NCBI GenBank assembly: GCA_009379825.1
Contig: WHTA01000039.1
Coordinates: 1 to 49,054, forward strand
Source: Streptosporangiales bacterium
Lineage (GTDB): Bacteria > Actinomycetota > Actinomycetes > Streptosporangiales > WHST01
Reading direction: 5' to 3'
Length of the DNA: 49,054 bases
A program made the translations under genes and the position numbers. The notes beneath the pieces are model-generated. The model ran no database searches. It was not told where the DNA came from and worked only from the letters and a program-made list of their open reading frames with translations. Shown piece after piece: positions 18,684 to 48,403 of this stretch. Position 1 is the first letter of the stretch. Each line of letters starts with the position of its first letter.

Positions 18684-20105
18684 GTGCTGCTCACCATCAC
18701 CTCGACCGCACCGCCGGCCACTGACCTGGGCTATCTGCTGCACAAGCACCCGGATCGCAGCCAGACGGCGCAGGTGTCCGCGGGTGCGGCGCACGTGTTC
18801 TACCCGCAGGCGGACGAGCACCGCTGCACCGCCGCGCTGCTCCTCGAGGTCGACCCGGTGCGGCTGGTGCGCTCGCGCGCGAAGACCGTGCGCGGCAGCT
18901 TCAGCCTCGGGCACTACGTGAACGACCGGCCGTACGCCGCGTCGTCGCTGCTCGCCGTGGCCATGAGCACGGTGTTCCGCACGGCCATGCGCGGCCGCTG
19001 CGACGCGCGGCCGGAGCTCGCGCAGTCGCCGCTGCCGCTCGAGGTGACCATCCCCGTCCTGCCCTGCCGCGGCGGCGCGGCGCTCGCGGTCGACCTGTTC
19101 GGCCCGCTCCGCTGGCAGGTGGACGCCACCGCGATCCCGCTCGACGAGACGGTGCCCGACTGGGGCGACTCGCCGTACGTGCACCTGACCTTGCGGGGCA
19201 CCGTGCGGCTCGCGGACGCGCTGAACCAGCTGTACGTCCTGCTGCCCGTACTCGACGACGCGAAGCACTACTGGGTGACCACCGACGAGGTGGACAAGCT
19301 GATCCGCGCGGGCACCGGCTGGTTGGGCAGCCATCCCAAGCACGAGCTCATCGCGCACCGCTACCTCGCGCACCAGCGCCATCTCACGCACGACGCCGTC
19401 GCCCGGCTCACGGAGATCGACGACGCGGCCGCGCCGGTGGCCGAGGAGACCGCGACCGTCACCGAGACGACCGCCGGTCGGGCGCTCGCGCAGCAGCGCG
19501 TCGACGCCGTGCTCGGCGCGCTGGCCGAGGAGGGCGGCGCGAGCGTCGTCGACCTCGGTTGCGGCGAGGGCCGGCTGCTCGGTCCGCTGCTCGCCGACAC
19601 CTCCTTCACGGAGGTCGCCGGCGCTGATGTCTCCGCCCGCGCGCTGGCCCAGGCGGAGAAGCGGTTGCACGTCGACCGGATGAGCGACCACAAGCGAGAG
19701 CGGCTGAAGCTGCTACGGACCGCGCTCACGTACCACGACGCCCGGTTGCGTGGCTACGACGCCGCCGTGCTGATGGAGGTGATCGAGCACGTCGACCCGG
19801 CGCGGCTGCCCGCGCTCGCGGACAACGTGTTCGGCGACGCACGGCCGACGTCGGTCGTGGTCACCACGCCGAACGCCGAGCACAACGTGCGGTTCCCCGA
19901 CCTGCCGGCCGGCGCGATGCGGCATCCGGACCACAGGTTCGAGTGGACCCGCGAGGCGTTCGGCCAGTGGGCGAAGGACGTCGCGGAGACCTACGGCTAC
20001 CGGGTGCGGTTCCTGCCGGTGGGCGAGGACGACCCCGAGGTCGGCCCGCCGACGCAGCTCGCAGCGTTCCGACGTAACGACTCCCCGGTGAGGGGTGACG
20101 CCTGA
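18684..20105 (+). CDS. hen1: Hen1, RNA 3'-terminal 2'-O-methyltransferase of the RNA-repair system
   Basis: Methylates the 2'-OH at the 3' end of broken RNA before Pnkp seals it, so that the repaired RNA resists re-cleavage. The 473-residue protein starts at GTG 18684 behind GGAAAGAA. The N-terminal half (about 1-230) is the bacterial Hen1 ligase-activating domain. The C-terminal half is the methyltransferase: SAM motif VDLGCGEGRLLGPLL at about 288-302, and metal ligands E365, E368 and H369 in MEVIEHVDP plus H417 in RHPDHRFEWTREAFG. These positions agree within one residue with the ligands known from Clostridium thermocellum Hen1 (E366, E369, H370, H418). The stop overlaps the pnkp start by one base (TGATG), so the two subunits are coupled. 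Confidence 0.97.
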   Translation: MLLTITSTAPPATDLGYLLHKHPDRSQTAQVSAGAAHVFYPQADEHRCTAALLLEVDPVRLVRSRAKTVRGSFSLGHYVNDRPYAASSLLAVAMSTVFRTAMRGRCDARPELAQSPLPLEVTIPVLPCRGGAALAVDLFGPLRWQVDATAIPLDETVPDWGDSPYVHLTLRGTVRLADALNQLYVLLPVLDDAKHYWVTTDEVDKLIRAGTGWLGSHPKHELIAHRYLAHQRHLTHDAVARLTEIDDAAAPVAEETATVTETTAGRALAQQRVDAVLGALAEEGGASVVDLGCGEGRLLGPLLADTSFTEVAGADVSARALAQAEKRLHVDRMSDHKRERLKLLRTALTYHDARLRGYDAAVLMEVIEHVDPARLPALADNVFGDARPTSVVVTTPNAEHNVRFPDLPAGAMRHPDHRFEWTREAFGQWAKDVAETYGYRVRFLPVGEDDPEVGPPTQLAAFRRNDSPVRGDA

Positions 20106-22693
20106 TGACCGGCACGCCCAGGGAGCTCCCCGTCCCTGCCACCTGCCTGATCGTGCTCGTCGGCATCTCCGGCTCGGGCAAGTCGACGTTCGCGCAGCGC
20201 AACTTCCTGCCGACCCAGGTGGTGTCGAGCGACTTCTGCCGCGGCCTGGTCAGCGACGACGAGAACGACCAGTCGGCGAGCGCGGACGCGTTCGACGTCA
20301 TGCACTACATCGTCGGCAAGCGGCTGGCGGCGTTCCGCACCACGGTCGTGGACGCCACGAACGTGCAGCCGTTCGCCCGCAAGCAACTGGTGGAGCTGGC
20401 CAGGGAGCACGACGTGCTGCCGGTGGCGATCGTGCTGAACCCGCCGGTGCAGGTGTGCCTGGAACGCAACGCAGGCCGCAGCGACAGGAACTTCGGGCAG
20501 CGGGTGCTGCACCGGCAGCACTCCGACCTGCGCGGCTCGCTGCGCAAGCTGGAGCGCGAAGGTTTCAGGCACGTCCACGTGCTCGACTCGGTCGACGACG
20601 TCGACTCGGCCACCGTCACGTACACGCGACTGCGCAGCGACCTGACACACCTGCACGGGCCGTTCGACGTCATCGGCGACGTGCACGGCTGCCTGGGCGA
20701 GCTGCGCACCCTGCTGACTGAGCTCGGCTACCAGCTGCGGCACGACGACGAGGACCGGCTCGTCGGTGCGCACCACCCGGACGGCCGCACGGCGGCGTTC
20801 GTCGGCGACCTGGTCGACCGCGGCCCGGACAGCCCCGGCGTGCTGCGGTTGGTGATGGGGATGGTCGCCGACGGCGACGCGCTCTGCGTACCCGGCAACC
20901 ACGAGCAGAAGCTCGTGCGCAAGCTCGCCGGCCGCAAGGTGACGGTGGGGCACGGCCTCGCCGAGACACTGGAGCAGCTGGACCGTGAGCCGCCGGAGTT
21001 CCGCGAACAGGTCAGGCAGTTCTGCGACGGGCTGGTCGCACACCTGGTGCTCGACGACGGCAACCTGGTGGTGGCACACGCCGGGCTGAAGGAGAAGTAC
21101 CACAACCGTACGTCCGGCCGGGTGCGCTCGTTCGCGCTCTACGGCGACACCACGGGCGAGACCGACGAGTACGGCCTGCCGGTGCGGCTGCCGTGGGCGA
21201 AGGAGTACCGCGGCAAGGCGATGGTGCTCTACGGGCACACGCCGATGCCCGAACCCGAGTGGGTCAACAACACCATGTGCCTGGACACCGGTTGCGCGTT
21301 CGGCGGCCGCCTCACGGCCATGCGCTACCCGGAGAAGCAGCTGGTGTCGGTACCGGCGGAGCGGGTCTGGTACGAGCCGGCGAAGCCGTTCCCGCCGAAC
21401 GACTCGCTCACGCCCGCGGACGGCGGCGCGCGTATCGAGTCGCCGGTGCTCGACCTGAACGACGTCACCACCGGCGGGGTGCAGACCGCGTACCAGGGCC
21501 ACATCGCTGTACGCGAGGGCAACGCGGCGGCGGCGCTCGAGCTGATGAGCAGGTTCGCCATCGACCCGCGGCTGCTGCTCTACCTGCCGCCGACGATGGC
21601 ACCGTGCGCCACGTCCCGCGCGGAGGGGTTGCTCGAACACCCGGAGGAGGCGTTCACGGCGTACCGCGTGGACGGGCTGGCGACGGTGGTGTGCGAGGAG
21701 AAGCACATGGGCTCCCGCGCGGTGGCGTTGCTCTGCCGCGACGAGGCGACCGCAAGACACCGCTTCGGCGTGGACGGCGTCAACGGCGCGGTCTACACCC
21801 GCACCGGCCGCTCGTTCTTCGACCAGCACACCACCGCCGAGCTGGTGGACCGGCTGCGTGCCGCGGCGGACGACGCCGGGCTGTGGCGCGACCTGGACGC
21901 CGACTGGGTGCTGCTCGACGCCGAGCTGCTGCCGTGGTCGGCCAAGGCCGAGGGGCTGATCAAGGAGCGGTACGCACCCGTCGGCGCGGCCGCGCGGGTG
22001 GGCCTCGACGCCGCCGTCGCATCGCTGCGTGCGACGTCGGAGCGCGATGTCGAGGTCGGCGACCTGCTCGAGCGCACGGTCGCGCGGGTCGACGACACCG
22101 AGCGGTTCACCGCCGCGTACCGCAGGTACTGCTGGCCGACCGACGGGTTGTCCGGGGTGCGGTTTGCGCCGTTCCAGCTGCTCGCCGCCGGCAAGGGCCA
22201 GCAGGGCCTGACGTACCACAAGCACGCGCACCGCTGGCATCTCGCGCTGGCCGACCGGCTGGCCGAGTCCGCACCCGACCTGCTGCAGCCGACCAACCGG
22301 CTGCTCGTCGACCTGGCCGACGACGACTCGGTGGCTGCCGGCGCGGCCTGGTGGGAGGAGCTCACCGCGGCCGGCGGTGAGGGCATGGTCGTCAAGCCGG
22401 CGGACGGCTCGGTCGTCCGGTCGTCGACCGGGCGATTGGTGCAGCCGGGCGTGAAGTGCCGCGGCAGTGAGTACCTGCGCATGATCTACGGCCCGGAGTA
22501 CACCGAGCCGGCCAACCTGGAGCGGCTGCGCAACCGCAACCTGGGACGCAAGCTGTCACTGGCGTTGCGCGAGCACGCACTCGGCCTCGAGGCACTCGAC
22601 CGGGTAGCCCGCGGCGAACCGCTGTGGCGCGTACACGAGTGCGTCTTCGCCGTACTCGCGCTGGAGGCCGAACCGGTCGACCCGCGGCTGTAA
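20105..22693 (+). CDS. pnkp: Pnkp, polynucleotide kinase-phosphatase-ligase for RNA repair
   Basis: Trifunctional end-healing and sealing enzyme (862 aa), the partner of Hen1 in a heterotetramer in characterised systems. Kinase module, about 1-175: P-loop GISGSGKST with K26. Metallophosphatase module, about 180-450: FDVIGDVHGCLGEL, FVGDLVDRGPDSPG, CVPGNHEQK, VVAHAGLK and VLYGHTP. Ligase/adenylyltransferase module, about 475-862: CEEKHMGSRAVAL with the nucleotidyl lysine K533, then LDAELLPWS and EGMVVKP near the end. All three sets of active-site motifs look intact, and the length matches characterised members (about 870 aa). It converges on the haem-oxygenase-like gene 13 bases away. RNA damage by ribotoxins is the presumed trigger. 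Confidence 0.97.
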   Translation: MTGTPRELPVPATCLIVLVGISGSGKSTFAQRNFLPTQVVSSDFCRGLVSDDENDQSASADAFDVMHYIVGKRLAAFRTTVVDATNVQPFARKQLVELAREHDVLPVAIVLNPPVQVCLERNAGRSDRNFGQRVLHRQHSDLRGSLRKLEREGFRHVHVLDSVDDVDSATVTYTRLRSDLTHLHGPFDVIGDVHGCLGELRTLLTELGYQLRHDDEDRLVGAHHPDGRTAAFVGDLVDRGPDSPGVLRLVMGMVADGDALCVPGNHEQKLVRKLAGRKVTVGHGLAETLEQLDREPPEFREQVRQFCDGLVAHLVLDDGNLVVAHAGLKEKYHNRTSGRVRSFALYGDTTGETDEYGLPVRLPWAKEYRGKAMVLYGHTPMPEPEWVNNTMCLDTGCAFGGRLTAMRYPEKQLVSVPAERVWYEPAKPFPPNDSLTPADGGARIESPVLDLNDVTTGGVQTAYQGHIAVREGNAAAALELMSRFAIDPRLLLYLPPTMAPCATSRAEGLLEHPEEAFTAYRVDGLATVVCEEKHMGSRAVALLCRDEATARHRFGVDGVNGAVYTRTGRSFFDQHTTAELVDRLRAAADDAGLWRDLDADWVLLDAELLPWSAKAEGLIKERYAPVGAAARVGLDAAVASLRATSERDVEVGDLLERTVARVDDTERFTAAYRRYCWPTDGLSGVRFAPFQLLAAGKGQQGLTYHKHAHRWHLALADRLAESAPDLLQPTNRLLVDLADDDSVAAGAAWWEELTAAGGEGMVVKPADGSVVRSSTGRLVQPGVKCRGSEYLRMIYGPEYTEPANLERLRNRNLGRKLSLALREHALGLEALDRVARGEPLWRVHECVFAVLALEAEPVDPRL

Positions 22694-30767: not shown

Positions 30768-31967
30768 TCACCGCCGCCGGCGGCGCCTACCGAACAGCGC
30801 GCGGATCCGCGCGCTCAAACTACGGCCGAGCAGCCGCAGCGCGCCAGGGGGCTTGACCGTGGCGACCTCGCCCCCGGTCGCCGCCGTCGCGACCGACGCG
30901 GCGAACTGCTCGAACAGCTGGCGGCTCACGTCGTCGGCCAGCGACCGCCCGAACTGCGCGATCCGGCCGGCCAGGTAGACGTTCGCGTGCGCGGTGAGCT
31001 CGGCGCCCCCGTCGTGGTCCGCCGCGGTGAGCCTGATGTCGGCCTGCACCCGGCCGCCGCCGGCGTCCTCGCCCTGGCCGAGCACACGCAGCTGCCTGGC
31101 CGCGGCATCGCGCTCGACGACCTGCGCGACGCCGTTGAACGCCAGCCGCACCGGGCCTAGCGCCACCTTCGCCCGACCGCGGTACCAGCCGTCGCCGAGA
31201 TCCTCGGTCAGCTCGGCGCCCGGCAGGCAGCGGGCGAGCAGTGCCGTGTCGTCGAGCACCGGCCACAACCGCTGCGGCGCCACCGCAACGACGCTCGACA
31301 CGGTCGAGACGACCGTGGGTTCGCTGTCCGGCAACGTGATCCGGTCCGGCCGGCCGACGGCCGGCGGCGGCTCGCCGCCACCCGACTCCGCCGGCGTGCT
31401 CACCGCGAGCGCCTGCCGGCCGGCGAGCGCAGTCGGCCGGCAGTTGCGGGGCGCCGGCACGCCGTCGCGGTGTGCGGACGCGACGTCGTCCACCGCGTCC
31501 ACGATGTTGCGGTAACCCGTGCACCGGCACAGCACGCCGGACAGCTCGGTCGGCAGCTGCTCGCGCGTCACCTCTGGGTCGTGGTCGAGCAGGTCGTACG
31601 CGCTCATCAGGAAGCCAGGTGTGCAGAAGCCGCACTGCAGCGCGTGGTGCTTGCTGAACGACTCCTGCAGCGGGTGCATGTCATCCGGTCGGCCGAGGCC
31701 CTCCACGGTCACCAGCTCGCTGCCGTCGAGCTGGCAGGCGAACAGCAGGCACGACCTGGCCGCCTCCCCGTCGACGAGCACCGTGCACATCCCGCAGACA
31801 CCGTGCTCGCAGCCGAGGTGCGTGCCGGTCAAGCCCAACCGGTCGCGGAGCACGTCGGCGAGCGTCAGCCGCGCCGGCACCTCGGTGGCGACCTCGGTGC
31901 CGTTCACCGTGAAGCGCACCGGCACCAGCTCGTCCGCCGCCGCCCGTACGGTACGCATCTCGCTCAT
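30768..31967 (-). CDS. CoxS-CoxG fusion: 2Fe-2S subunit joined to an SRPBCC domain
   Basis: A 399-residue protein. Residues about 15-175 are the small iron-sulfur subunit of a xanthine-oxidase-family enzyme. The plant-type cluster has the pattern C-x4-C-x2-C-x11-C (CEHGVCGMC then SC), and the second cluster appears as QCGFCTPGF and LCRCTGYRN. Residues about 220-365 are a CoxG-like SRPBCC domain (AVAPQRLWPVLDDTALLARC, LPGAELTEDLGDGWYRG), a family linked to membrane recruitment of CO dehydrogenase. The protein ends in a basic tail (LFGRRRRRR) that could contact the membrane. CoxS and CoxG are usually separate genes. It overlaps coxM by 4 bases (ATGA) and passes electrons from the Mo subunit to the FAD subunit. 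Confidence 0.93.
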   Translation of the reverse strand: MSEMRTVRAAADELVPVRFTVNGTEVATEVPARLTLADVLRDRLGLTGTHLGCEHGVCGMCTVLVDGEAARSCLLFACQLDGSELVTVEGLGRPDDMHPLQESFSKHHALQCGFCTPGFLMSAYDLLDHDPEVTREQLPTELSGVLCRCTGYRNIVDAVDDVASAHRDGVPAPRNCRPTALAGRQALAVSTPAESGGGEPPPAVGRPDRITLPDSEPTVVSTVSSVVAVAPQRLWPVLDDTALLARCLPGAELTEDLGDGWYRGRAKVALGPVRLAFNGVAQVVERDAAARQLRVLGQGEDAGGGRVQADIRLTAADHDGGAELTAHANVYLAGRIAQFGRSLADDVSRQLFEQFAASVATAATGGEVATVKPPGALRLLGRSLSARIRALFGRRRRRR

Positions 31968-32848
31968 CGCGCCCCCTCTACAGCATCGTGGTACGCGGCG
32001 ACCAGCCCGCGCGCGACGAGCGTTCGTACCAGCCGCTTGCGGTAGTCGGCGCCGGCGTGGGCGTCGCCCGCCGTGGTGACCATCTCGTCGGCGAGCGGCG
32101 CGGCGCGCTCGGTGAGCAGGTTGGTGAGCTCCGCGCGCGACGCGCTGTGCAACAGCTCGACCAGCTCGTCGTCGACGGAGCGGACGACTGGCCGGTCCGC
32201 GACGCCGAACCCGGCGACGATGGCCGTGACCTTCCCGTCCGCCACGTGCACCTTGGTGGCGAGACCGGCGAGCGCGAAGTCGCCGTGCCGGCGCGCGATC
32301 TCGCCGAACGCGAACCCCTCGCCCGCTGCGGCCACCGGGAAGCGCACGCCCACGAGCACCTCGTCGCGCTGCAGCGCCGTGGTCATGGCGCCGACGAAGA
32401 AGTCCCGCGCGGCGACCGTCCTACGGCCAGCGCTGCCGGCGATCTCCACCTGCGCGTCCAGGCAGCACGCGACGGCCGGCAGCTCGGCGGCCGGGTCGGC
32501 GTGCGCGAGGCTGCCGCAGACGGTGCCGCGACTGCGCAGCTCGCGGTGCCCGACCCACGGCAACGCCTTGTGCAGCAACGGCACCCGCCTGGTCTCGGCG
32601 GCGCGTTCGAGCGTGCGCTGCCGCACCGTAGCGCCGACGGACAACCAGGCACCGTCGAGCCGCAGCTCGTCGAGCCCGGCCACCGCGTTGATGTCGACCA
32701 GCGTCGACGGTCGCGCCAACCGCATCGCGAGCACGGGCACCAGTGACTGCCCGCCGGACAGCACCTTGCTGTCCTCGTCCGCCGCGAGCTCGGCACACGC
32801 CTCGTCGACGGTGCCTGGACGGACGTACGCGAACGGAGCGCTCTTCAT
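31964..32848 (-). CDS. CoxM-type FAD-binding subunit of a molybdenum hydroxylase
   Basis: The medium subunit (294 aa) carries FAD and passes electrons on to an acceptor. FAD motifs: KVLSGGQSLVPVLAMRL at about 28-44 and RSRGTVCGSLAHADPAAELP at about 104-123, matching the two family signatures GGQS and TxGGxxxxADP (here the latter is TVCGSLAHADP). The CO-dehydrogenase C-terminal FAD domain covers about 175-280. Its ATGA overlap with the CoxS-CoxG gene and position after the hydratase gene indicate one operon. Confidence 0.94.
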   Translation of the reverse strand: MKSAPFAYVRPGTVDEACAELAADEDSKVLSGGQSLVPVLAMRLARPSTLVDINAVAGLDELRLDGAWLSVGATVRQRTLERAAETRRVPLLHKALPWVGHRELRSRGTVCGSLAHADPAAELPAVACCLDAQVEIAGSAGRRTVAARDFFVGAMTTALQRDEVLVGVRFPVAAAGEGFAFGEIARRHGDFALAGLATKVHVADGKVTAIVAGFGVADRPVVRSVDDELVELLHSASRAELTNLLTERAAPLADEMVTTAGDAHAGADYRKRLVRTLVARGLVAAYHDAVEGAR

Positions 32849-32857
32849 CGCCCGCGC

Positions 32858-33637
32858 CTACCTGCCGGTGAACTTCGGGGCGCGCTTCTCCCCGAACGCA
32901 GCGACACCCTCGGCGAAGTCGTGGCTGGACCTGAGCATGGCGTAGCCCTTGCGCTCCAGCTCGATGCCCGTGTACAGCGGGCCGTCCACGCCCTTGTCGA
33001 GCACCTCCTTGGCGGTGCCGAGCGCGAGCGGCGAGAACCCGAGCAGCGTCTGCACGACCTTCTCCGTCGCCTCGTCGAGAGCGGCGCGGTCGGTGGCCAG
33101 CTGCGCGACCAGGCCCCAGTCGAGCGCCTGCTGCGCCTTGATCCGCTCCGCGGTGAGCACGTGGTACTTCGCCCGCGACAGTCCGATCAGCCTGGCCAGC
33201 CGCTGCGTGCCACCACTGCCCGGCATCATGCCGAGCCGCATCTCGGGCAGCGCGAACTCGCTGCGCTCGGTCGCCAGCCGGATGTCCGCCGACAGCGCCA
33301 GCTCGAAGCCGACACCGAAGCAGTACCCGTCGACCGCGGCGATCACCGGCTTGCGGCTGCGCGCGGGCGCGGTGACGTTGTGGCCGAGGTCGGTGAAGTC
33401 GATCGGGTCGACCTCCATGAAGCCCTGGATGTCGCCGCCGGACGAGAAGTGCTCACCGTCGCCGCGGATCACCACGACCTGCACGGTGTCATCCCGGTCG
33501 ATCTCCGCGAAGTGGTCCGCCATCACCTGCCGCGTCTCCCAGGTGATGATGTTGTACTTCCCGTTGTCGATCGTGAGCTCGACGACGCGACCGTCGTGCG
33601 TGCGTTCGAGCCTGATCTCGCCACCGGTGAGCGCCAT
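32858..33637 (-). CDS. Enoyl-CoA hydratase/isomerase (crotonase family)
   Basis: A 259-residue crotonase-fold protein that would act on a CoA thioester. The first oxyanion-hole strand is in VIRGDGEHFSSGGDIQGF and the second in AAVDGYCFGVGFELALSADI. The later active-site region is FALPEMRLGMMPGSGGTQRL, in which the Glu after LP aligns with a catalytic glutamate of hydratases. The gene lies between coxL (7 bases upstream) and coxM (10 bases downstream). That placement inside a molybdenum hydroxylase operon means that the pathway joins hydroxylation with CoA-ester chemistry. The exact reaction (hydration, isomerisation or hydrolysis) cannot be told. Confidence 0.92.
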   Translation of the reverse strand: MALTGGEIRLERTHDGRVVELTIDNGKYNIITWETRQVMADHFAEIDRDDTVQVVVIRGDGEHFSSGGDIQGFMEVDPIDFTDLGHNVTAPARSRKPVIAAVDGYCFGVGFELALSADIRLATERSEFALPEMRLGMMPGSGGTQRLARLIGLSRAKYHVLTAERIKAQQALDWGLVAQLATDRAALDEATEKVVQTLLGFSPLALGTAKEVLDKGVDGPLYTGIELERKGYAMLRSSHDFAEGVAAFGEKRAPKFTGR

Positions 33638-33643
33638 GGTTGG

Positions 33644-36079
33644 TCAGGGTCCTTCCTGGTCGGGGTCTTCGAGAAGACTGTGCAACACCTCGCCGTGCAA
33701 CGGCAGGCTGGTGACGTCGACGCCGCGCGGCCGCAGCGCGTCGGCGACGGCGTTCGCGACGGCGACCGGCAGGCTCATGCTGCTGCCCTCGCCGCAACCC
33801 TTGGCGCCGAGCTTGGTGACCGGCGACGGGGTCTCGAGGTGGTCGCTGTCGAGCTCGTACGACGCCTCCGCCGACGTCGGGCAGAGGTAGTCCATGAACG
33901 TGGACGCCATCGGCTGACCTGAGTCCGCGTACCTGAACTCCTCGTACAACGCGCCACCGAGCCCGTGCGCGAGCGCGCCGTGCACCTGGCCCTCGAGCAG
34001 CGCCGGGTGCAGCACGGTGCCCGCGTCGTGCACGGTACTGACCTTCTCCAGCGTGATCTCCAGCGTCGCAGGGTCGATCCGGCAGGCCACCAGCTCGGCG
34101 ACGAAGCCGTAGCAGAGGCTGGAGTTGATCTGGTCGTCGCGGCTGGCGGCCTTCGCCTGCGGCGGCGTGAACGCGGCCTCCTCGTACAACCGGGCGGACA
34201 CCCCGTCCGGCAGCGAGCCGGGATCCCAGTGCACGAGGCCGGCGGCGTGCCGCAGCAGCACGCTCTTGTCGTGGTCGCGCGCGTGGCGCACAGCGCCCTC
34301 GGCGAGCTCCAGCTCGTCCGGCGGTACGTCGAGCAGCACGCCGGCCGCGAGCTTCAACGTGCCTGCGATCTTGTCCGCCGCGTCCACCAGCGCACTGGTG
34401 AGCAGCGGCGCGAACCTGGACGAGTACGAGCCGGAGCTGATCGTCCACGGCGTGGTGGCGGTGTCCATCGCCACCACGGGCCGCACCTGCGCGAGCGGCA
34501 ACCCGAGCCGGCTCGCAACAACCTGCCTGGCGACGGTCGCGTGCCCCTGGCCCTGCGGCACGGTGCCGAGCAGCACCGACACCACGCCCTGCGGGTCGAC
34601 GCTGATCCGTACGTGCTCGGTGGAGCCGGACTTCCCGCGGCCTGGCGGCCGTTGCTCCGCCGGCGTGGCGAGACCGACGTACCCGATGTTCGTCGCGGAC
34701 GGGTCGACCACGAGCGCCATGCCGACACCGAACAGCTCACCGTTGGCCGCGGCCGCCGCGCTGCGCGCGCGCAGCTCGTCGTAGCCGGCGTTCGCGAGCA
34801 TCAGGTCGAGGGCCTTCTGGTAGTCGCCGGAGTCGTAGACGCCCCCGGTGGGCGTCTGGTACGGGAAGGCGTCCGCGGGCACCAGGTTGCGCCTCCTGGC
34901 CTCCGCGGGGTCGAGGCCGGTCGCCTCGGCGACGTCGTCCATCAGCCGTTCCAGGCCGAAGTAGAGCTGCTGGCCACCGAAGCCGCGGTTCAGCCCGGTG
35001 GGCGTCTTGTTGGTCACCACTGCCCGCGCGCGGATCTGCACGGCGTCGATGGCGTACGGGCCGGTGATGTTGCCGAAGCACCGGTAGAGCGTGCTCGGCT
35101 CCGGCGGCCGCAGGTACGCGCCGACGTTGTCGACCAGGTCTACGCGCAGCGCGCGCACCCGGCCGTCGGTGTCCACCGCGGCGTCGAACCACATCACCCG
35201 GTCGGAGCCGGCGGAGCTGGCCAGCAGGTGCTCGATCCGGTCCTCGGTCCACCGCACCGGCCGGCCGGCGTGCTTGCTCGCGAGCGCCATCAGCACCACG
35301 TACGGGTACACCGCCGACTTGATGCCGAAGCTGCCGCCGATGTCCTTCGGCACCACCATGCGCAGCCGCGACACCGGGATATCGAGCGCGCCCGCGACGA
35401 CCGGCACCATGGAGAACGGTCCGTGGAAGTTCGCCCAGGCGTCCACACCTGGGCCGTCGGCGTCGACCTTCCAGTCGGCGATGACGCTGTAGCACTCCAT
35501 CGGCGTGGACGAGTACCGCGGGAACGAGTACCGGCCGCGCACCACGTGCGCGGCGTCGGCGAACACCCCGTCCACGTCGCCGAAGTCGAAGGTGCGGTCG
35601 CTGGCCACGTTGCCGTCCGCTTCGTCGTGCAGCCGCGGCGCGTCGGCGGCCAGCGCGGCGACGGTGTCCACGACGGCCGGCAGCGGCTCGTACTCGACGG
35701 TGGCCAGCTCGGCGGCGTCCTCGGCCAGGTAGCGGTCGCTGGCGACCACCACCGCGACCGGCTCGCCGACGAAGCGCACCTTGTCCGTGCCTGTGGGGTA
35801 GTACGGCATGGGCGTCTTCACCGACAGCGGGAACGGGCGCAGTGCCGCGCGCACCTCGTCCGGCCCGATAACTGCCGCCACGCCCGGCGCAGCGCGTGCG
35901 GCGTCGAGCTGAACGGCGACAATACGTGCATGCGGGTGCGGGCTACGGACGACGGCGGCGTGCAAGCTGCCGGGCAGCGGGTCGAGGTCGTCGAGGAACT
36001 CGCCCTGGCCGCAGACCAGCGGACCGTCCTCGATCCGCGCCCCGTCCACACCACCCGGAGGGATCAGCTGGCTCGCCAC
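33644..36079 (-). CDS. CoxL-like molybdopterin-binding large subunit, non-CO type
   Basis: Large catalytic subunit of the xanthine-oxidase family (811 aa). The GTG at 36079 is preferred because AGGGGAG lies 5 bases upstream; the ATG at 36094 has no ribosome site. Features include FVGEPVAVVVASDRYLAEDA, PKDIGGSFGIK, VPQGQGHATV and the catalytic Glu in LGAKGCGEGSSM at about residue 762. True CO dehydrogenases have an active-site loop AYxCSFR, and form II relatives AYRGAGR. The corresponding stretch here reads GLNRGFGGQQ (about 361-370), with no Cys, so CO is unlikely as substrate. It is the first gene of the operon and divergent from the PadR regulator. No Mo-cofactor maturation genes are in the window. 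Confidence 0.93.
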   Translation of the reverse strand: MASQLIPPGGVDGARIEDGPLVCGQGEFLDDLDPLPGSLHAAVVRSPHPHARIVAVQLDAARAAPGVAAVIGPDEVRAALRPFPLSVKTPMPYYPTGTDKVRFVGEPVAVVVASDRYLAEDAAELATVEYEPLPAVVDTVAALAADAPRLHDEADGNVASDRTFDFGDVDGVFADAAHVVRGRYSFPRYSSTPMECYSVIADWKVDADGPGVDAWANFHGPFSMVPVVAGALDIPVSRLRMVVPKDIGGSFGIKSAVYPYVVLMALASKHAGRPVRWTEDRIEHLLASSAGSDRVMWFDAAVDTDGRVRALRVDLVDNVGAYLRPPEPSTLYRCFGNITGPYAIDAVQIRARAVVTNKTPTGLNRGFGGQQLYFGLERLMDDVAEATGLDPAEARRRNLVPADAFPYQTPTGGVYDSGDYQKALDLMLANAGYDELRARSAAAAANGELFGVGMALVVDPSATNIGYVGLATPAEQRPPGRGKSGSTEHVRISVDPQGVVSVLLGTVPQGQGHATVARQVVASRLGLPLAQVRPVVAMDTATTPWTISSGSYSSRFAPLLTSALVDAADKIAGTLKLAAGVLLDVPPDELELAEGAVRHARDHDKSVLLRHAAGLVHWDPGSLPDGVSARLYEEAAFTPPQAKAASRDDQINSSLCYGFVAELVACRIDPATLEITLEKVSTVHDAGTVLHPALLEGQVHGALAHGLGGALYEEFRYADSGQPMASTFMDYLCPTSAEASYELDSDHLETPSPVTKLGAKGCGEGSSMSLPVAVANAVADALRPRGVDVTSLPLHGEVLHSLLEDPDQEGP

Positions 36080-40606: not shown

Positions 40607-40705
40607 CCCGCACAGCGGACCATTGGCCGGCATCTGGACCAACGTCCCTTCTGCCCACCCGCGGGCGCGCCCAAGGTGAAGCCACCATCGACAAAGGGGT
40701 CGGTC

Positions 40706-41956
40706 ATGCGCGTTCGCGGCGTTGTCGTCGTTGCTGCCATGGCGGGCACGTTCTTCTGGCCGACGGCCGCCGACGCGGCCGTCATCACCTGTGACGGCCG
40801 GCGCGCGACGATCGTCGGCACCAGCCAGGACGAGGTCATCACCGGCACGCCACGCAGCGACGTGATCGCCGCGCGGGGCGGCAGCGACACGGTGTACGGC
40901 CGCGGCGGCAACGACCGCATCTGCGGCGGTTACGGCGCCGACCGGCTGAACGGCGGCCCCGACGACGACCGGCTGAACGGCGGGATGGATCGGATCTCCG
41001 AGACCGACGAGGAGACCAGCAGGACCGGCGACACGCTACGCGGAGGCAGCGGCTCCGACCGGCTGGTGCCAGGCCGCGACACCCGACCTGCGGACGACAT
41101 CGGCTTCGACGCCATCGTCTGGGACACCTCGCCGCGCAAGGTCCGTATCGACATGGCCGCCGGCATCGCGACCGGCAACGGGCGCGACTCGTTCGACTCG
41201 CGCGCAGCGTGGGTGATCGGCTCCCCGTTCGGCGACACCATCGAGGGCAGCAACGGCCGCGACCGGATCGACGGCGACCGGGGGTCCGACGTCATCAGCG
41301 GCCGGCGCGGCAACGACCGCATCGTCACCGACCGCGGCACCGGCGAGACCGGCGGCAGGGATGTCGTGTCGGGCGGCCGCGACGACGACCAGATCACGTC
41401 CGGCGCCGGCCGTGACTACGTGCACGGCGGTCGCGGCGACGACGTCATCGACGACTTCGGCCGCAGCTCGGACCGGCTGTACGGCGGCAAAGGACGCGAC
41501 TTCCTCATCGGCCAGCTGTGGACGGGCGAAAAACCGCAGGTGCTCTGGGGCGGCCCGGGCGTGGACCGGGTGAGCCTCTTCACCACGGCGCTCAACCCGG
41601 CGGCGTCGGCGTCGGAGGGCACCTGGAACATAGCGTCGGGCAGGCTCGTCTTCGAGCTCGACCAACCGGTCGTCGCGACCGTGGGCAGCTTCCGCGACGC
41701 CGACCTGTCGTCGTACGGCACCACGTGGGTGGTCAGGGGCACCGACCACGCCGACAACCTCAACGCGGCGGGGACCGCGGGCACCACGTTCCGTACACTC
41801 GGCGGCGACGACAGCTTCTTCGGCTCCGCCTCCGACGACGTGTTCGACGGCGGCCCCGGCACCGACCACTCCCTCGGCATGGGCGTCGGCGACGACACGT
41901 GCATCAGCGTCGAACAGGACGACCAACCCGCCGACTGCGAGACGGTGCTCCCCTGA
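40706..41956 (+). CDS. Secreted RTX-type calcium-binding repeat protein
   Basis: A 416-residue protein from ATG 40706 (AAGGGG 6 bases upstream). A Sec-type signal peptide covers about residues 1-25 (VRGVVVVAAMAGTFFWPTAADA). About a dozen degenerate RTX nonapeptides of the GGxGxDxh type follow, such as GGSDTVYGRGGNDRICGGYG, GADRLNGGPDDDRLNGG, GGRGDDVIDDFG and LGGDDSFFGSASDDVFDGG. They would fold into a calcium-filled beta-roll outside the cell. No C-terminal type I secretion signal or secretion genes are seen, so export is by the signal peptide. No catalytic domain is recognised. Confidence 0.88.
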   Translation: MRVRGVVVVAAMAGTFFWPTAADAAVITCDGRRATIVGTSQDEVITGTPRSDVIAARGGSDTVYGRGGNDRICGGYGADRLNGGPDDDRLNGGMDRISETDEETSRTGDTLRGGSGSDRLVPGRDTRPADDIGFDAIVWDTSPRKVRIDMAAGIATGNGRDSFDSRAAWVIGSPFGDTIEGSNGRDRIDGDRGSDVISGRRGNDRIVTDRGTGETGGRDVVSGGRDDDQITSGAGRDYVHGGRGDDVIDDFGRSSDRLYGGKGRDFLIGQLWTGEKPQVLWGGPGVDRVSLFTTALNPAASASEGTWNIASGRLVFELDQPVVATVGSFRDADLSSYGTTWVVRGTDHADNLNAAGTAGTTFRTLGGDDSFFGSASDDVFDGGPGTDHSLGMGVGDDTCISVEQDDQPADCETVLP

Positions 41957-42363: not shown

Positions 42364-42466
42364 AAGTATTCTTTGGCGCTAACGTCAAACCTCGCTCGTG
42401 CGTCGTCATCAATAGTCGTAGGCCATCGGCTTGACGTCTTGGCGTAGCTGCCAGAGAATGCTGCCG

Positions 42467-43084
42467 ATGGCTCGCCAAGTTCAGCGATCTGTGCGGCGTG
42501 AGCAGCTTGTCGCTGCTGCCGCGCGTGCGATCGGCAACCGTGGACTGGCCGGGCTGCGCGTCGCCGACGTGGCCGAGCAGGCCGGCGTCGTCCGCGGTTC
42601 GGTGCACTACTACTTCCCCGACCTCTCCGACCTGCTGCACGAGGTGTACCAGCAGTCAGTCGAACGGTTCTGCACCGCGAGGATGCAGCGGGCGACGGAG
42701 CTCGACGACGCCCGCGAGAAGCTCGTGACCACCGCCCGCGCCGGCATACCGTGGAGCGCCGACGACGAGCTCGTCAACGTGCTGTACGAGTTCACGACCG
42801 CGGTACGCGAGGACCCCACATACGCCGTCATCCACGAGGCGCTGTTCGACCGGCAGGTCACGATGTACGCGGCGATCCTGGAAGTGGGCAAGGCACAGGG
42901 CCACTTCCGGCCGACCGCCCCGCCGCTCGACATCGGCGCGAACCTGGTGTCGCTGGAGAACGGCTACGGCCTGCACATCCTTGGCGGCCCCAACGTGATG
43001 GCGCCGCAGCGCGCGTTCGAGCTGATCCTCTCCTACGCCCGCGATGCCACCGGCTGCTCCGACCTCACGGCCACCGCGACATGA
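42467..43084 (+). CDS. TetR-family regulator of the NSAR cluster
   Basis: A 205-residue regulator from ATG 42467 (MARQVQRSVRREQLVAAA); ATGs slightly upstream in frame are possible. The HTH spans about residues 10-55: AARAIGNRGLAGLRVADVAE, then QAGVVRGSVHYYFPDLSDLL. The rest is an all-helical ligand domain. Upstream, ACGTCAA (about 42380) and TTGACGT (42431) are inverted copies 44 bases apart and may be part of its control region. The stop overlaps the ATG of the P1 peptidase gene (ATGA), so the regulator probably controls the genes after it. Confidence 0.9.
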   Translation: MARQVQRSVRREQLVAAAARAIGNRGLAGLRVADVAEQAGVVRGSVHYYFPDLSDLLHEVYQQSVERFCTARMQRATELDDAREKLVTTARAGIPWSADDELVNVLYEFTTAVREDPTYAVIHEALFDRQVTMYAAILEVGKAQGHFRPTAPPLDIGANLVSLENGYGLHILGGPNVMAPQRAFELILSYARDATGCSDLTATAT

Positions 43085-44182
43085 GTGCGCGCGACCTCGG
43101 CGTGCCGTTCCAAGGGCGGACGGGGACCTGGAACGCGATCACCGACGTCCCCGGGGGTCCTGGTCGGCTACCGGACACTGGTCTCGGGCTCCGGCCCGCT
43201 GGTGACCGGTGAGGGCCCGGTCCGTACGGGGGTCACGGCGATCCTGCCCCGCGGCAGGGACGGCGTGGGAACCCCGTGTGCCGCCGGCTGGTACTCGCTC
43301 AACGGCAACGGGGAGATGACCGGCACGACCTGGATCGAGGAGACCGGCGCACTCACCCTCCCGGTGACGATCACCAACACGCACGCGGTCGGCCCGGTGC
43401 ACAGCGGCGTCCTGCAGTGGGTGCACCGCGAGCACCCGCAGCTCGCCAGGGAGTGGCTGCTCCCGGTCGTAGCCGAGACCTGGGACGGCTACCTGAACGA
43501 CATCAACGGCGGTCACGTACTGCCCGGTCACGCCGCGGCAGCCATCGACGCGGCCGACACCGGTCCGGTCGCGGAAGGCTCGGTCGGCGGTGGCACCGGC
43601 ATGAACTGCTACGGCTTCAAGGGCGGCAGCGGCACGTCGTCGCGGGTGGTGGCGTACGGCAGCGACACCTACACCGTCGCCGCGTTCGTCCAGGCGAACT
43701 TCGGCTCCCGCGCAGAGCTGACCGTCGCGGGTATCCCCGTCGGCCGCGAGCTGCGCGACGACGACCCGCTCGACGCGCCAGGCGCCGGCTCGGTGATCGT
43801 GGTCGTCGCGACGGACGCCCCGCTGCTACCGAACCAGTGCAAGGCGCTTGCCCGTCGGGTGCCGTTGGGAATCGCCCGCACCGGCACGTCCGGCGGGCAC
43901 TTCTCCGGCGACATCTTCCTCGCGTTCTCCACCGCCAACACCGGCGCGTTGACGAGCACGATGGCGGGCACGACGGACGACTACCAACGCCTCACCTTCG
44001 TCCCGTGGGGCAACATCGACCCGTTCTACGCCGCGACGGTGCAAGCCGTCGAGGAGGCGGTCGTCAACGCGCTGGTGGCGGCGACCGAGATGGTCGGCCG
44101 CGACCACCATCGCTCGCCCGCCCTGCCGCACGACGTTCTCGTGTCGATGCTGCGCGACCACAACCGCCTCCGCGGCGACTGA
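43081..44182 (+). CDS. P1-family (DmpA/S58) aminopeptidase, frame broken near its start
   Basis: N-terminal-nucleophile hydrolase of the DmpA family, which removes N-terminal D-, L- or beta-amino acids and self-cleaves. The signature is GSVGGGTGMNCYGFKGGSGT followed by SSR; the chain is cut before the nucleophilic Ser/Thr in the GSGTSSR stretch. ATG 43081 overlaps the TetR stop and reads MSARDLGVPFQGRTGTWNAI, ITDVPG. It then leaves the main frame at a C4G5 run (43149-43157). Removing one G gives the family-typical DVPGVLVGYRT continuing to TGA 44182. The 1,102-bp span is not a multiple of three for this reason. Either an error or a real disruption. Confidence 0.88.
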
Positions 44183-44256
44183 CGGGTTTCCCAACCGACC
44201 CACCGGCGATAGCCTGCAAGCGTCCGCGGAGGCGAGCGCAAGTGGAGTGTGTTGCC

Positions 44257-45030
44257 GTGAGTGAGCTGTCGAGCCGGGCGCCCCGGCTGAACGAGATGTC
44301 GTGGCCGAAGGTACGGGAGGCGCTCGACAACGGCGTCCGCACCGCGATCTTCGCCGTCGGTTCGACCGAACAGCACGGCCCGCACCTGCCCCTACAGACG
44401 GACGCCCTGCTCGGCGAGGCGCTCGTCGCCGAGCTCACCCCGCGCCTGCCGAACACGGTGATGGCACCGACGATCCCGCTCGGTGTATCGACGCACCACA
44501 TGGCGTTCCCCGGCACCCTCACCCTGGACACCCCGACCTTCCTGAGCGTCGTCGAGCAGTGCGTCGCGAGCCTTGCCGAGCACGGTTTCACGACGGTACT
44601 CGTGGTGCCGAGCCACGGCGGGAACTTCGCGCCACTGCGGGAGCTGTACGAACGCACCGGCGGCACGATCGGTGGCGCACGGTTCCTGCCGTACACCGAC
44701 CTGTTGGCGTTCATCCGGGCGATGGAGGCGGTCAGCGCCGAGGAGGGGATCGCGCCAGAGGTGAGCGGCGCGCATGCCGGCGAGTCGGAGACGTCGCTTG
44801 TGCTCGCGCTGCGTCCCGACCTGGTGGACATGGACGCCGCCGTCGCCGGTTTCGACAAGCAGCTCGACGACGCCACCGCGAAATACCTGTTCGAGCACGG
44901 CACCGCCGCGCTCACCGACGTCGGCGTACTCGGCGACGCCCGGGCGGCCGACGCGGAGCGTGGACACCGCTACCTGAAAGCCGTCGTCGACCTGCTCTAC
45001 GACTACTTCGAGCCCGCGCTCCGCGGCTGA
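44257..45030 (+). CDS. Creatininase-family metal-dependent amidohydrolase
   Basis: A 257-residue protein of the creatinine amidohydrolase/MftE family from GTG 44257 (GGAG 9 bases upstream). Metal-ligand motifs are in place: Glu and His in VGSTEQHGPHLPLQTD, the His in PSHGGNFAP, and Glu in SGAHAGESETSLVLAL. Known members open creatinine, cleave formamides in riboflavin/F420 pathways, or trim peptides in mycofactocin synthesis. In this cluster, with a P1 aminopeptidase and an NSAR, hydrolysis of an N-acyl or cyclic amide of an amino acid is plausible but not shown. Confidence 0.92.
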   Translation: MSELSSRAPRLNEMSWPKVREALDNGVRTAIFAVGSTEQHGPHLPLQTDALLGEALVAELTPRLPNTVMAPTIPLGVSTHHMAFPGTLTLDTPTFLSVVEQCVASLAEHGFTTVLVVPSHGGNFAPLRELYERTGGTIGGARFLPYTDLLAFIRAMEAVSAEEGIAPEVSGAHAGESETSLVLALRPDLVDMDAAVAGFDKQLDDATAKYLFEHGTAALTDVGVLGDARAADAERGHRYLKAVVDLLYDYFEPALRG

Positions 45031-45072
45031 CCCCATCGCTGCGCAACGAGCAGCCATCGATGCAGCGAACCA

Positions 45073-45083
45073 CCCCCCCCCCC
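45073..45083. repeat. Run of eleven C between creatininase and GNAT genes
   Basis: Eleven consecutive C in the 114-base gap, 61 bases before the GNAT start. It is the longest homopolymer seen in the window and a likely spot for replication slippage or base-call error. Confidence 0.9.
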
Positions 45084-45144
45084 GCGAGCCCGATCCTCCC
45101 TCCCGCTGACGTATCCGCGGTGGCGTGGCAGCGATACTGGACGA

Positions 45145-45984
45145 GTGCCTGAACCGACATCCGCGCTCGACGATGCCCGCCGTCGCGCCTCGGTGGCCGC
45201 GGCCGGCGCCGACGTGCAGGTCGAGCGGGTCGAGGAACCTGCCCGCCTCGCTGCCGCCGTCGAGCTGCTCGCCGAGATCTGGGCGACGCCGCCCGGCTGT
45301 CCACCACTTCCTGCAGACGTGCTGCGCAGCCTGGGACACGGCGGCGGCGCCGTACACGTGGCGTTCCGTGCCGGCACACCGATCGGCGCGGCCGCGGCGT
45401 TCTTCGGGCCGCCGGCGGCGCGGAGCGTCTACTCGCTGATCGCCGGTGCGCACAGCAGCGACCGCGGCATCGGCGTCGCGCTCAAACAGGCGCAACGCGT
45501 ATGGGCCCTGCAGCACGACGCCACCGTGATGCTGTGGACGTTCGACCCGCTCGTCAGCCGCAACGCGCGCTTCAACCTGGTCAAGCTGGGGGCGATGGCG
45601 CGCGAGTACTCCGTCGACTTCTACGGTCCGCTCGACGACGGCCTCAACAGCGAGGACGAGACCGACCGGCTCACCGCCGAGTGGACGCTCACCGACGTCC
45701 GGCCGCAGCAACCCACGGACACTCCCGCACCGCCCGACCCTGCCACCGCCGACGTGACCGCCACCGCACCTGACGGTGGCCCGTTGGCGATCCGGGTGCC
45801 CGACGCGCTCTGGTGCCGCGTGCCGCACGACATCGTGGCGCTGCGCCAAGACGACCCTGGCGCTGCCGCCGGCTGGCGCGCCGCCGTGCGCGACGTGTTC
45901 GTCCCCGCCTTCGCGGCCGGTTTCCGCGCGACCGGCATGACCCGCGACGGCTGGTACCACCTCACGACGGAGGAGGCCGGGTGA
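45145..45984 (+). CDS. GNAT-superfamily acyltransferase of the COG3375 type
   Basis: A 279-residue protein starting at GTG 45145. Features: RLAAAVELLAEIWATPPGCP, then VAFRAGTPIGAAAAFFG, the acyl-CoA loop-like AHSSDRGIGVALKQAQR, and LWTFDPLVSRNARFNLVKLGA, which is characteristic of the COG3375 'predicted GNAT' proteins. The C-terminal third is extra. In Geobacillus and related bacteria this family sits beside NSAR, and members were characterised as D-amino-acid N-succinyltransferases. The same pairing, with a 4-base GTGA overlap, is seen here, so an N-acyl (perhaps N-succinyl) D-amino acid is the likely product. Confidence 0.87.
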   Translation: MPEPTSALDDARRRASVAAAGADVQVERVEEPARLAAAVELLAEIWATPPGCPPLPADVLRSLGHGGGAVHVAFRAGTPIGAAAAFFGPPAARSVYSLIAGAHSSDRGIGVALKQAQRVWALQHDATVMLWTFDPLVSRNARFNLVKLGAMAREYSVDFYGPLDDGLNSEDETDRLTAEWTLTDVRPQQPTDTPAPPDPATADVTATAPDGGPLAIRVPDALWCRVPHDIVALRQDDPGAAAGWRAAVRDVFVPAFAAGFRATGMTRDGWYHLTTEEAG

Positions 45985-47087
45985 AGATCGAGCACGTCGA
46001 GCTGGTCGAGGTGAGCCTGCCGCTTGTCGGCGAGTTCCGCACCTCCAACCAGGCGGTCTCGTGGCGCGACACGTTCCTGCTGCGCGTCGACACGAACGCC
46101 GGCACCGGCTGGGCCGAGTTCGCCGGCGACCCCGACCCGTCCTACAGCGAAGAGTTCGCGGCCGGCGCCGAGATCGCCATCAGGGACCACATGCTGCCCC
46201 TGCTGACCGGCGTCGACGACCTCACCGCCGGGCGCGTGGGCACTCTGCTCCATCCGATCAAGGGCAACGTCATGGCGAAGGCCGTGGTGGAGACCGCACT
46301 GCTGGACACGGAGCTGCGGGCGCACGACATGTCGTTCGCGAACTACCTCGGCGCGGTGCGCGAGCGGGTGCCCGCAGGCGTGTCGGTGGGCATCATGGAC
46401 TCGATACCCCAGTTGCTGGACGCCGTCGCCGGCTACCTCGCCGAGGGCTACGTACGGATCAAGCTCAAGGTGCAGCCGGGCTGGGACATCGAGCCGGTGC
46501 GCGCCGTACGAACGGAGTTCGGTGCCGACCTCACGTTGCAGGTGGACGCGAACACCGCGTACGCGCTGCACGACGCCGAGCACCTGCGCCGGCTGGACGA
46601 GTTCGACCTGCTGCTGATCGAGCAACCACTCGCCGAGGACGACCTGCGCGGGCACGCCGAGCTGGCCAGGGTGCTGCGCACGCCGATCTGCCTGGACGAG
46701 GCGATCACCTCCGCCCGCGACGCCGCGACGGCGATCGCCATGCACGCGTGCCGCGTCATAAACATCAAGCCGGGGCGGGTCGGCGGCTACCTGGAGGCCA
46801 GGCGGATCCACGACGTCGCTGCGGCGAACGGCATACCCGTCTGGTGCGGCGGCATGCTCGAGTCCGGCGTCGGCCGCGCACCGAACCTCGCGCTCGCCGC
46901 GCTCCCCGGCTTCGTCCTGCCCGGCGACACGTCCGCGTCGAGCCGCTACTACGCCGAGGACCTCACCGAGCCGTTCGTACTCGACGACGGCGCGATCGAC
47001 GTGCCGCAGGGCGCCGGCACCGGCGTGACCATCCGGCCGGACGTGCTCCGCGACGTCACCGTTGCCAGGCGCGACCTCTACACGTAG
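45981..47087 (+). CDS. N-succinylamino-acid racemase / o-succinylbenzoate synthase family (enolase superfamily)
   Basis: A 368-residue enzyme from GTG 45981 (GGAGGAGG upstream). All catalytic residues of the NSAR/OSBS group are visible at their usual places: K161 and K163 (IKLKV), metal ligands D189 (LQVDANTAY), E214 (LLIEQPLA) and D239 (ICLDEAIT), and K263 (INIKPGRVGGY). These positions agree with those known for the Amycolatopsis NSAR. It racemises N-acyl amino acids. It may also make o-succinylbenzoate, but no other menaquinone genes are near, and the adjacent COG3375 acyltransferase favours amino-acid inversion. Its last 10 bases overlap the convergent transporter gene. Confidence 0.93.
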   Translation: MKIEHVELVEVSLPLVGEFRTSNQAVSWRDTFLLRVDTNAGTGWAEFAGDPDPSYSEEFAAGAEIAIRDHMLPLLTGVDDLTAGRVGTLLHPIKGNVMAKAVVETALLDTELRAHDMSFANYLGAVRERVPAGVSVGIMDSIPQLLDAVAGYLAEGYVRIKLKVQPGWDIEPVRAVRTEFGADLTLQVDANTAYALHDAEHLRRLDEFDLLLIEQPLAEDDLRGHAELARVLRTPICLDEAITSARDAATAIAMHACRVINIKPGRVGGYLEARRIHDVAAANGIPVWCGGMLESGVGRAPNLALAALPGFVLPGDTSASSRYYAEDLTEPFVLDDGAIDVPQGAGTGVTIRPDVLRDVTVARRDLYT

Positions 47088-48403
47088 CGCTTCCGCTTCC
47101 GCACGACGGAGATGCCGAGTGCGCCGGCGAGGTTGGTCGCGGCGATGAGCGCGAGCAGCAGGGCAGGCCCCCACACCTGGTTGTCGGAGAAGCCGAGGAA
47201 CACCTGCGCGATGGCGGGCACGAAGCCACCGACGATGCCCGCGATGTTGTACGACAGCGCGACCGCCGAGTACCTGACCTCACTGGGGAACAACTCGGCC
47301 AGCATCGCACCCGTCGGGGCGTACGGAATGCTCAGCGCGGCGATGCCGACGGTGACGCCGACGATCACGAGCGCCGCGCTGCTGGTGCCGATCAGCAGGA
47401 AGATCGGGAACGCCAGCACCAGCGTCACCGCAGAACCGAACGCGCTCACCTTCCACGCGCCCCACCTGTTCGCCAACCGACCGAAGTACATGATGATGGC
47501 GATCTCGGCCACCGCACCGAGCTGCGTGGCCAACAGCATCGTCGATCTGGACAGGCCGAGTGTCTCGGTGCCGTAGCTGAGGATGAAGGTCGTCAGCAGG
47601 AAGAAGCCGCCGATGCCCAGGAGCGAACCCGCCGCGCACAGCACCATCCGGCCGGGCGAGAACCGCAGTGCGGTGAACAGCGGTACCCGTTGCGCCCGCT
47701 CCTCCTCGAGCATCTGCTTGAACAGCGGCGACTCCTCGATCCGCACCCGCAGGTAGACCGCCACGCCGAGCAACACGAAAGCGAACACGAACGGCAGCCG
47801 CCAACCCCAGCTGAGCAGCGCGTCCTCGGGCAGCTGCGTGACGGCGATGAAGGCACCGCTCGACACCAGCGTGCCGAGCGGGGAACCGAGCTGTGGGATG
47901 GACGCGTAGAACGGCCGCTTGTCCGCCGGCGCGTACTCCAACGCCAGCAGCACTGCGCCGCTCCACTCGCCGCCGACCGAGAAGCCCTGGGCGAACCTGA
48001 GCAGGCTCAACGCGATCGGCGCGGCGATGCCTACGGACTCGTACACCGGGAGCAAGCCGATGAGCCCCGTGGCCAGGCCCATGACGAGCACCGTGACCAT
48101 GAGCGCCAGCCGCCGGCCATGCCGGTCCCCCAGGTGCCCGAACGCGATCGCGCCGATCGGCCGCGCCACGAAACCGACGGCGAAACTGAGGAATGCCACG
48201 AGGATGCCGACACCGGGTGCGAAACCGGGGAAGAACAGCGTCTCGAATACCAGCGCGGCAGCGGTGCCGTAGAGGAAGTAGTCGTACCACTCCAGGGCGG
48301 TGCCGATCAGCGAGGCGCCGGCGACGCGACGGACCATCTCCGGCGGTATGTCCGCCTGCCTACTGACGGTTCCGTCGTCATGCTCGCTCCCTATCGGCCG
48401 CAA
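47078..48403 (-). CDS. MFS transporter of the metabolite:H+ symporter (MHS) family
   Basis: A 12-helix secondary transporter for organic acids or amino compounds. MHS signatures: GTALEWYDYFLYGTAAALVF at the first helix, the loop motif GHLGDRHGRRLAL, and RFAQGFSVGGEWSGAVLLA (the RxxQGxxxGGEW motif). As written the frame starts at TTG 48403 (441 aa) without a good ribosome site. An ATG at 48381 with AGGGAG 6 bases upstream reads MTTEPSVG but is one frame off. One added G at about 48361-48362 would fuse it to QADIPPEMVRRVAG. So the start is uncertain or the frame is broken. It converges on NSAR and probably carries that pathway's substrate. Confidence 0.9.
   Translation of the reverse strand: MRPIGSEHDDGTVSRQADIPPEMVRRVAGASLIGTALEWYDYFLYGTAAALVFETLFFPGFAPGVGILVAFLSFAVGFVARPIGAIAFGHLGDRHGRRLALMVTVLVMGLATGLIGLLPVYESVGIAAPIALSLLRFAQGFSVGGEWSGAVLLALEYAPADKRPFYASIPQLGSPLGTLVSSGAFIAVTQLPEDALLSWGWRLPFVFAFVLLGVAVYLRVRIEESPLFKQMLEEERAQRVPLFTALRFSPGRMVLCAAGSLLGIGGFFLLTTFILSYGTETLGLSRSTMLLATQLGAVAEIAIIMYFGRLANRWGAWKVSAFGSAVTLVLAFPIFLLIGTSSAALVIVGVTVGIAALSIPYAPTGAMLAELFPSEVRYSAVALSYNIAGIVGGFVPAIAQVFLGFSDNQVWGPALLLALIAATNLAGALGISVVRKRKRYV

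Follow-up and report, generated by a model that had tools for sequence, protein, structure and literature searches.

A GNAT-NSAR gene pair predicted to convert D-amino acids in a Streptosporangiales bacterium belongs to a branch without an adjacent M20 peptidase

In a contig of 49,054 nucleotides from a Streptosporangiales bacterium (WHTA01000039.1; the whole stretch is called the window hereafter), two overlapping genes at 45145-47087, coding for a GNAT acyltransferase and an NSAR-type racemase, were found to form a pair that recurs across the order, in the class and at the majority of 80 named loci, a conserved unit that probably converts D- to usable L-amino acids. Systems of this kind are known, and the hydrolase genes next to the pair in the window are not beside it in relatives. 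Taken as a whole, the explanation I favour, with a probability of roughly 0.6, is that this pair is the working unit: GNAT would N-acylate D-amino acids, most likely by N-succinylation, NSAR would interconvert the D and L forms of the N-acyl amino acids, and the L-amino acid would then be freed in trans by a hydrolase whose gene lies at another place in the genome. Throughout the branch to which the window belongs, amino-acid import and PucR control would be coupled to the pair in place of an adjacent M20 peptidase, while the TetR, P1 and creatininase-family genes of the window would be a separable module, most likely for peptide degradation, from which the pair may receive amino acids.

Six genes occupy 42467-48403, and the identity that a preliminary description had assigned to each of them was upheld by profile or fold matches. 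A TetR-family regulator (42467-43084, plus strand; PF00440, 39 bits; PF13977, 31 bits), with its earliest in-frame start at 42431 and ATG codons at 42458 and 42467, is followed on the same strand by a frame-broken gene for a P1/DmpA-type (peptidase S58) aminopeptidase (43081-44182; PF03576, 361 bits), a creatininase-family metal amide hydrolase (44257-45030; PF02633, 225 bits), the GNAT acyltransferase, which has a predicted GNAT fold and a C-terminal extension (45145-45984), and its partner, a racemase of the NSAR/OSBS subfamily in the enolase superfamily (45981-47087; TIGR01928, 270 bits). The TetR/P1 and GNAT/NSAR overlaps described earlier are both real and span 4 nt each. The sixth gene, for an MHS-type MFS transporter (47078-48403; TIGR00883, 353 bits, not reaching the cut-off of 443), lies on the minus strand with its 3' end converging on NSAR in a 10-nt overlap, and was for that reason ruled out as an operon member. 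All six genes described as consecutive are therefore present, but they do not form a common run: apart from the strand of the transporter gene, gaps of 74 nt between P1 and creatininase and of 114 nt between creatininase and GNAT, the latter containing an 11-C run, mean that the five plus-strand genes need not share one transcript. A consensus scan, whose evidence is weak at the high GC content of this genome, found no terminator-like sites across 42431-48403 and one sigma-70-like match just upstream of TetR at 42431-42459 (0.3 expected). With P1, creatininase, GNAT and NSAR contiguous on the same strand and no terminator-like site found, the layout is compatible with one transcript and one pathway.

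Elsewhere in the window, and judged by eye, two adjoining ORFs at 18684-22693 resemble Hen1 and polynucleotide kinase-phosphatase, as in RNA repair, a molybdenum-hydroxylase-like gene set with large, FAD and 2Fe-2S subunits lies on the minus strand at 30768-36079, and a protein encoded at 40676-41956 carries repeated glycine/aspartate-rich, RTX-like calcium-binding motifs.

The acyltransferase had no Pfam match at E 0.001 (PF13480 matched weakly, at E 0.021), and a profile search of solved structures returned weak matches only. An AlphaFold model built from 28 relatives (mean pLDDT 92.4) matched GNAT acetyltransferases over residues ~22-187 with a best Foldseek E of 1.7e-7, and VIA-align gave Z scores of 13.5-15.8 against GNAT chains, the highest with an rmsd of 2.0 over 148 residues; an additional C-terminal part reaches residue 279. 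The GNAT fold of the window protein is in this sense confirmed by prediction.

The racemase scored well above its model cut-off (270 versus 201 bits for TIGR01928), and its nearest solved relatives are N-acylamino acid racemases of Amycolatopsis (1sja, 476 bits). The alignment with these enzymes (PDB 1sja, 4a6g, 5fjo) is gapless over residues 1-363, and the same active-site residues are present: K161, K163, D189, E214, D239, K263 and R266 are all retained in the sequence alignment, including the catalytic lysines 163 and 263 and the metal ligands D189, E214 and D239. Arg266 reportedly favours NSAR activity. Unlike the Amycolatopsis enzymes, the window racemase has a partner GNAT that falls in the M20-less branch, and its activity is a predicted one. 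PMC8142540 gives a table of kinetic values for racemases of N-succinyl and N-acetyl amino acids, among them the Amycolatopsis enzymes.

Enzymes of the NSAR/OSBS subfamily are promiscuous between the OSBS and NSAR reactions, and the NCBIfam model passed by the window protein carries the name o-succinylbenzoate synthase. A role as the o-succinylbenzoate synthase for menaquinone is nonetheless highly improbable: the genome encodes a dedicated MenC elsewhere (contig C21; 442 bits against a cut-off of 288), adjoining an AMP-ligase homologue and a MenD-like ORF, the latter judged by eye, whereas the NSAR gene of the window overlaps the GNAT gene and has no men gene nearby. The menaquinone role was rejected on the basis of the separate MenC, and racemase is the better reading of the sequence. 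The same MenC, together with the conservation of the pair, lends support to the earlier placement of GNAT-NSAR in a D-/L-amino-acid pathway.

The NSAR pathway of Geobacillus kaustophilus reportedly consists of a succinyltransferase, NSAR and an M20 desuccinylase. The adjacent, overlapping GNAT and NSAR genes and the NSAR catalytic residues are common to that pathway and the window, whereas the M20 is absent at the window locus and throughout its branch, and the neighbouring P1 and creatininase-family genes lie outside the known Geobacillus pathway. Many relatives have an M20 peptidase gene (PF01546) preceding the pair, giving the order M20-GNAT-NSAR, and the genus-mate (genome G001, locus L047) is one of them. 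In a tree of 89 GNAT sequences, sampled by their similarity to the window, the window protein fell into a clade of 60 rows, and a quick search gave an SH-aLRT support of 87 both for this clade and for its sister clade. An adjacent M20 was found at none of the 59 other loci in the clade of the window, while the sister clade had one at 19 of its 26 (Fisher p 1.5e-13, to be taken as a guide only, since the rows are related and not independent). Across the sampled loci, the lack of an M20 is thus shared by the entire branch. The preliminary description had stated that no M20 was present, which is correct for the locus but not for the genome, where an M20 homologue is encoded at C9:63485.

NSAR adjoins GNAT in 50 of the 59 branch loci, and a PucR regulator lies within three genes of GNAT in 41. 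At the same distance, family-3 amino-acid ABC transporters were seen in 18 loci, APC permeases in 15 and DapE in 12, and the transporters of the branch include a basic-amino-acid-type SBP and AA_permease_2. This M20-less, transporter-linked branch, with its duplicated DapE in Streptomyces, is the more solid new point of the analysis.

Two variants within the branch were observed alongside. A tight run of genes in an Actinophytocola MAG (L124:5489-12571) encodes a carbon-nitrogen hydrolase, an amine oxidase, an agmatinase, GNAT, NSAR and a Na+/H+ antiporter-family protein, which suggests an arginine-like substrate there. Arthrobacter and relatives (L158, L164, L166-L168, L170, L176, L181, L183) combine a GNAT of the branch and an amino-acid ABC transporter with a different enolase-superfamily enzyme, which replaces NSAR and is 27-29% identical to it.

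An M20-superfamily protein recurs as a neighbour in the Streptomyces members of the branch; the one tested is a succinyl-diaminopimelate desuccinylase (DapE) equivalog of the gram-positive type (TIGR01900, 475 bits versus a cut-off of 304), and all 11 Streptomyces genomes checked carry exactly two DapE copies above the cut-off, one beside the pair at a PucR-GNAT-NSAR locus (L123, L126, L128-L130, L132, L136, L142, L144, L147, L149) scoring 441-475 bits, and one elsewhere scoring 508-529 bits. The second, dedicated copy probably performs the last step in these genomes, and its presence at the locus suggests N-succinyl as the acyl group in that lineage; for the window GNAT, N-succinyl is likewise the most likely acyl group. 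The genome of the window encodes a single DapE above the cut-off (contig C88, 510 bits) and no paralogue of it. Its M20 homologue at C9:63485, beside a sodium symporter, is 48% identical to the M20 in the cluster of the genus-mate, but in the M20 tree it did not group with the NSAR-linked M20s and stood apart from them on a long branch, with modest support (90/75); the tree does not support it as a clear orthologue of them. Candidates for the last step are this M20, the single DapE, other M20s, or the two hydrolases encoded next to the pair.

Of these two, the P1/DmpA-type protein contains an S58 domain whose autoproteolytic Gly-Ser site aligns with that of DmpA, and scored 296 bits against the DmpA structure (PDB 1b65). 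It shares the Gly-Ser cleavage/nucleophile site and the SGDIF motif with the DmpA/BapA peptidases of its family (S58; PDB 1b65, 3n2w, 5tzb), but differs from them in an N-terminal segment that is out of frame, and the Tyr of the DmpA motif ETYDG is replaced by Trp both in the window protein and in seven of eight close relatives. An intact reading frame was not found when the gene was compared with eight relatives that are 63-70% identical over the body, all of which placed a frame break near 43151-43157, where the sequence is a run of C and G: residues ~1-23 are matched in the frame of 43087-43155, and from 43151/43154 onward the body is matched in a different frame. The longest ORF starts with a GTG at 43085, already in the body frame, and consequently has the wrong N-terminus, while the natural start is probably the ATG at 43081. 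The break may be either an assembly or sequencing error or the mark of a truly damaged gene. Close P1 relatives (up to 75%) occur in varied gene contexts and adjoin an amino-acid permease in two genomes.

The creatininase-family protein shares PF02633 and metal-site motifs with a family that includes creatininase (1j2t), MftE and other amidohydrolases, and contains the motifs STEQHG, QTDALL, PSHGGN and HAGESETS. It scores below the curated cut-offs for both creatininase (TIGR04448, 111 versus 235 bits) and MftE (TIGR03964, 137 versus 172 bits), and the Glu of creatininase HYEN aligns with a Gly in the HGGN of the window protein. Relatives at 59-68% in several genomes are grouped with an M19 dipeptidase, a class-A beta-lactamase-like protein and peptide ABC transporters, in sets that also hold an N-methyltryptophan-oxidase (MTOX)-like enzyme and an ornithine-cyclodeaminase-like protein; other relatives are grouped with AnmK, a SIS-domain MurQ-like protein and M19. 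A 78% relative in the genus-mate has no other gene of the cluster as a neighbour. In one further genome (G356, L226:6199-17138), a set of creatininase, beta-lactamase-like and M19 dipeptidase genes abuts a complete M20-GNAT-NSAR-PucR locus, with the creatininase relative two genes beyond PucR. To me this hints, independently of the window, that the subfamily has its place in the breakdown of peptides and D-amino acids, and a functional link between creatininase and NSAR would be possible given this neighbourhood; since the NSAR locus of G356 has its own M20, it argues against the creatininase relative as a desuccinylase. Given that dipeptidases and peptide transporters accompany its relatives, once right next to a classic M20-GNAT-NSAR locus, the window enzyme is more likely to take part in peptide breakdown than to act as a desuccinylase.

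Conservation of the gene order in relatives, on whose absence the preliminary description had in advance agreed to give up its cluster, was not seen. Neither P1 nor creatininase lies within six genes of GNAT at any of the 59 branch loci, and their close relatives sit elsewhere. A second case of the six-gene arrangement was absent from 150 relatives searched with NSAR, creatininase and P1, from 394 genomes of the class (creatininase, P1 and GNAT searches) and from the 80 named loci, and P1-creatininase adjacency was seen only in the window. The literature searched, which for the most part did not extend to subscription papers, yielded no NSAR locus with P1 or creatininase and no account of this GNAT family. 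As both hydrolase genes are absent from the 59 branch neighbourhoods, the proposed cluster is specific to the genome of the window, and the six-gene pathway is not established. The earlier interpretation thus keeps its NSAR pathway without an M20 and loses P1 or creatininase as the replacement, which fails the conservation test.

How the two hydrolases relate to the pair can be read in several ways. That one of them is the desuccinylase in place of M20, so that the five plus-strand genes make up one new pathway, is quite unlikely: the genes are contiguous on one strand, both products belong to amide hydrolase families, the branch has no M20 and one independent creatininase relative lies near an NSAR (L226), but that relative sits beside a locus already equipped with its own M20, none of the 59 branch loci has either gene within six genes, and the P1 frame is broken. 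Enzymes of the P1/DmpA family are aminopeptidases and work on substrates with a free N-terminus; an N-succinyl amino acid has none. A wider form of the idea, in which the M20-less branch is modular and unrelated amide hydrolases fill the deacylase slot lineage by lineage (in Streptomyces the dedicated second DapE, in the one Actinophytocola genome the carbon-nitrogen hydrolase, and in the window either P1 or the creatininase-family enzyme), would also seem unlikely.

A place for P1 and creatininase at the first step, where they would free residues from imported peptides for GNAT-NSAR to convert those in the D-form, in a truly functional neighbourhood assembled within this lineage, has a little less than an even chance. 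It would agree with the company of creatininase relatives (M19 dipeptidases, peptide ABC transporters, AnmK and the MurQ-like SIS protein), with the M19, D-aminoacylase-like and beta-lactamase-like hydrolases that also occur at classic NSAR loci, and with the permeases next to P1 relatives, but the set in the window has no peptide importer and the arrangement has no second genome. A chance neighbourhood is a tentative alternative, also somewhat short of even odds, in which two unrelated modules, TetR-P1-creatininase and GNAT-NSAR, merely abut and P1 is possibly decaying; the 114-nt junction with its 11-C run, the lack of conservation, the P1 frame break and the isolated creatininase relative of the genus-mate would fit it, while the shared strand, the related chemistry and the absence of a terminator-like site between the modules speak against it. 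Both of these readings concern the link of the hydrolases to the pair and are compatible with GNAT-NSAR as the working unit, the first-step reading overlapping with it.

Cell walls and peptides provide a large nutrient pool of D-amino acids, and their use by way of NSAR is known mainly together with an M20 desuccinylase. The M20-less actinobacterial branch raises the question of which enzyme removes the acyl group, and whether the substrate is a basic or diamino acid, for example diaminopimelate. The branch would also help to separate racemases from menaquinone enzymes in genome annotation.
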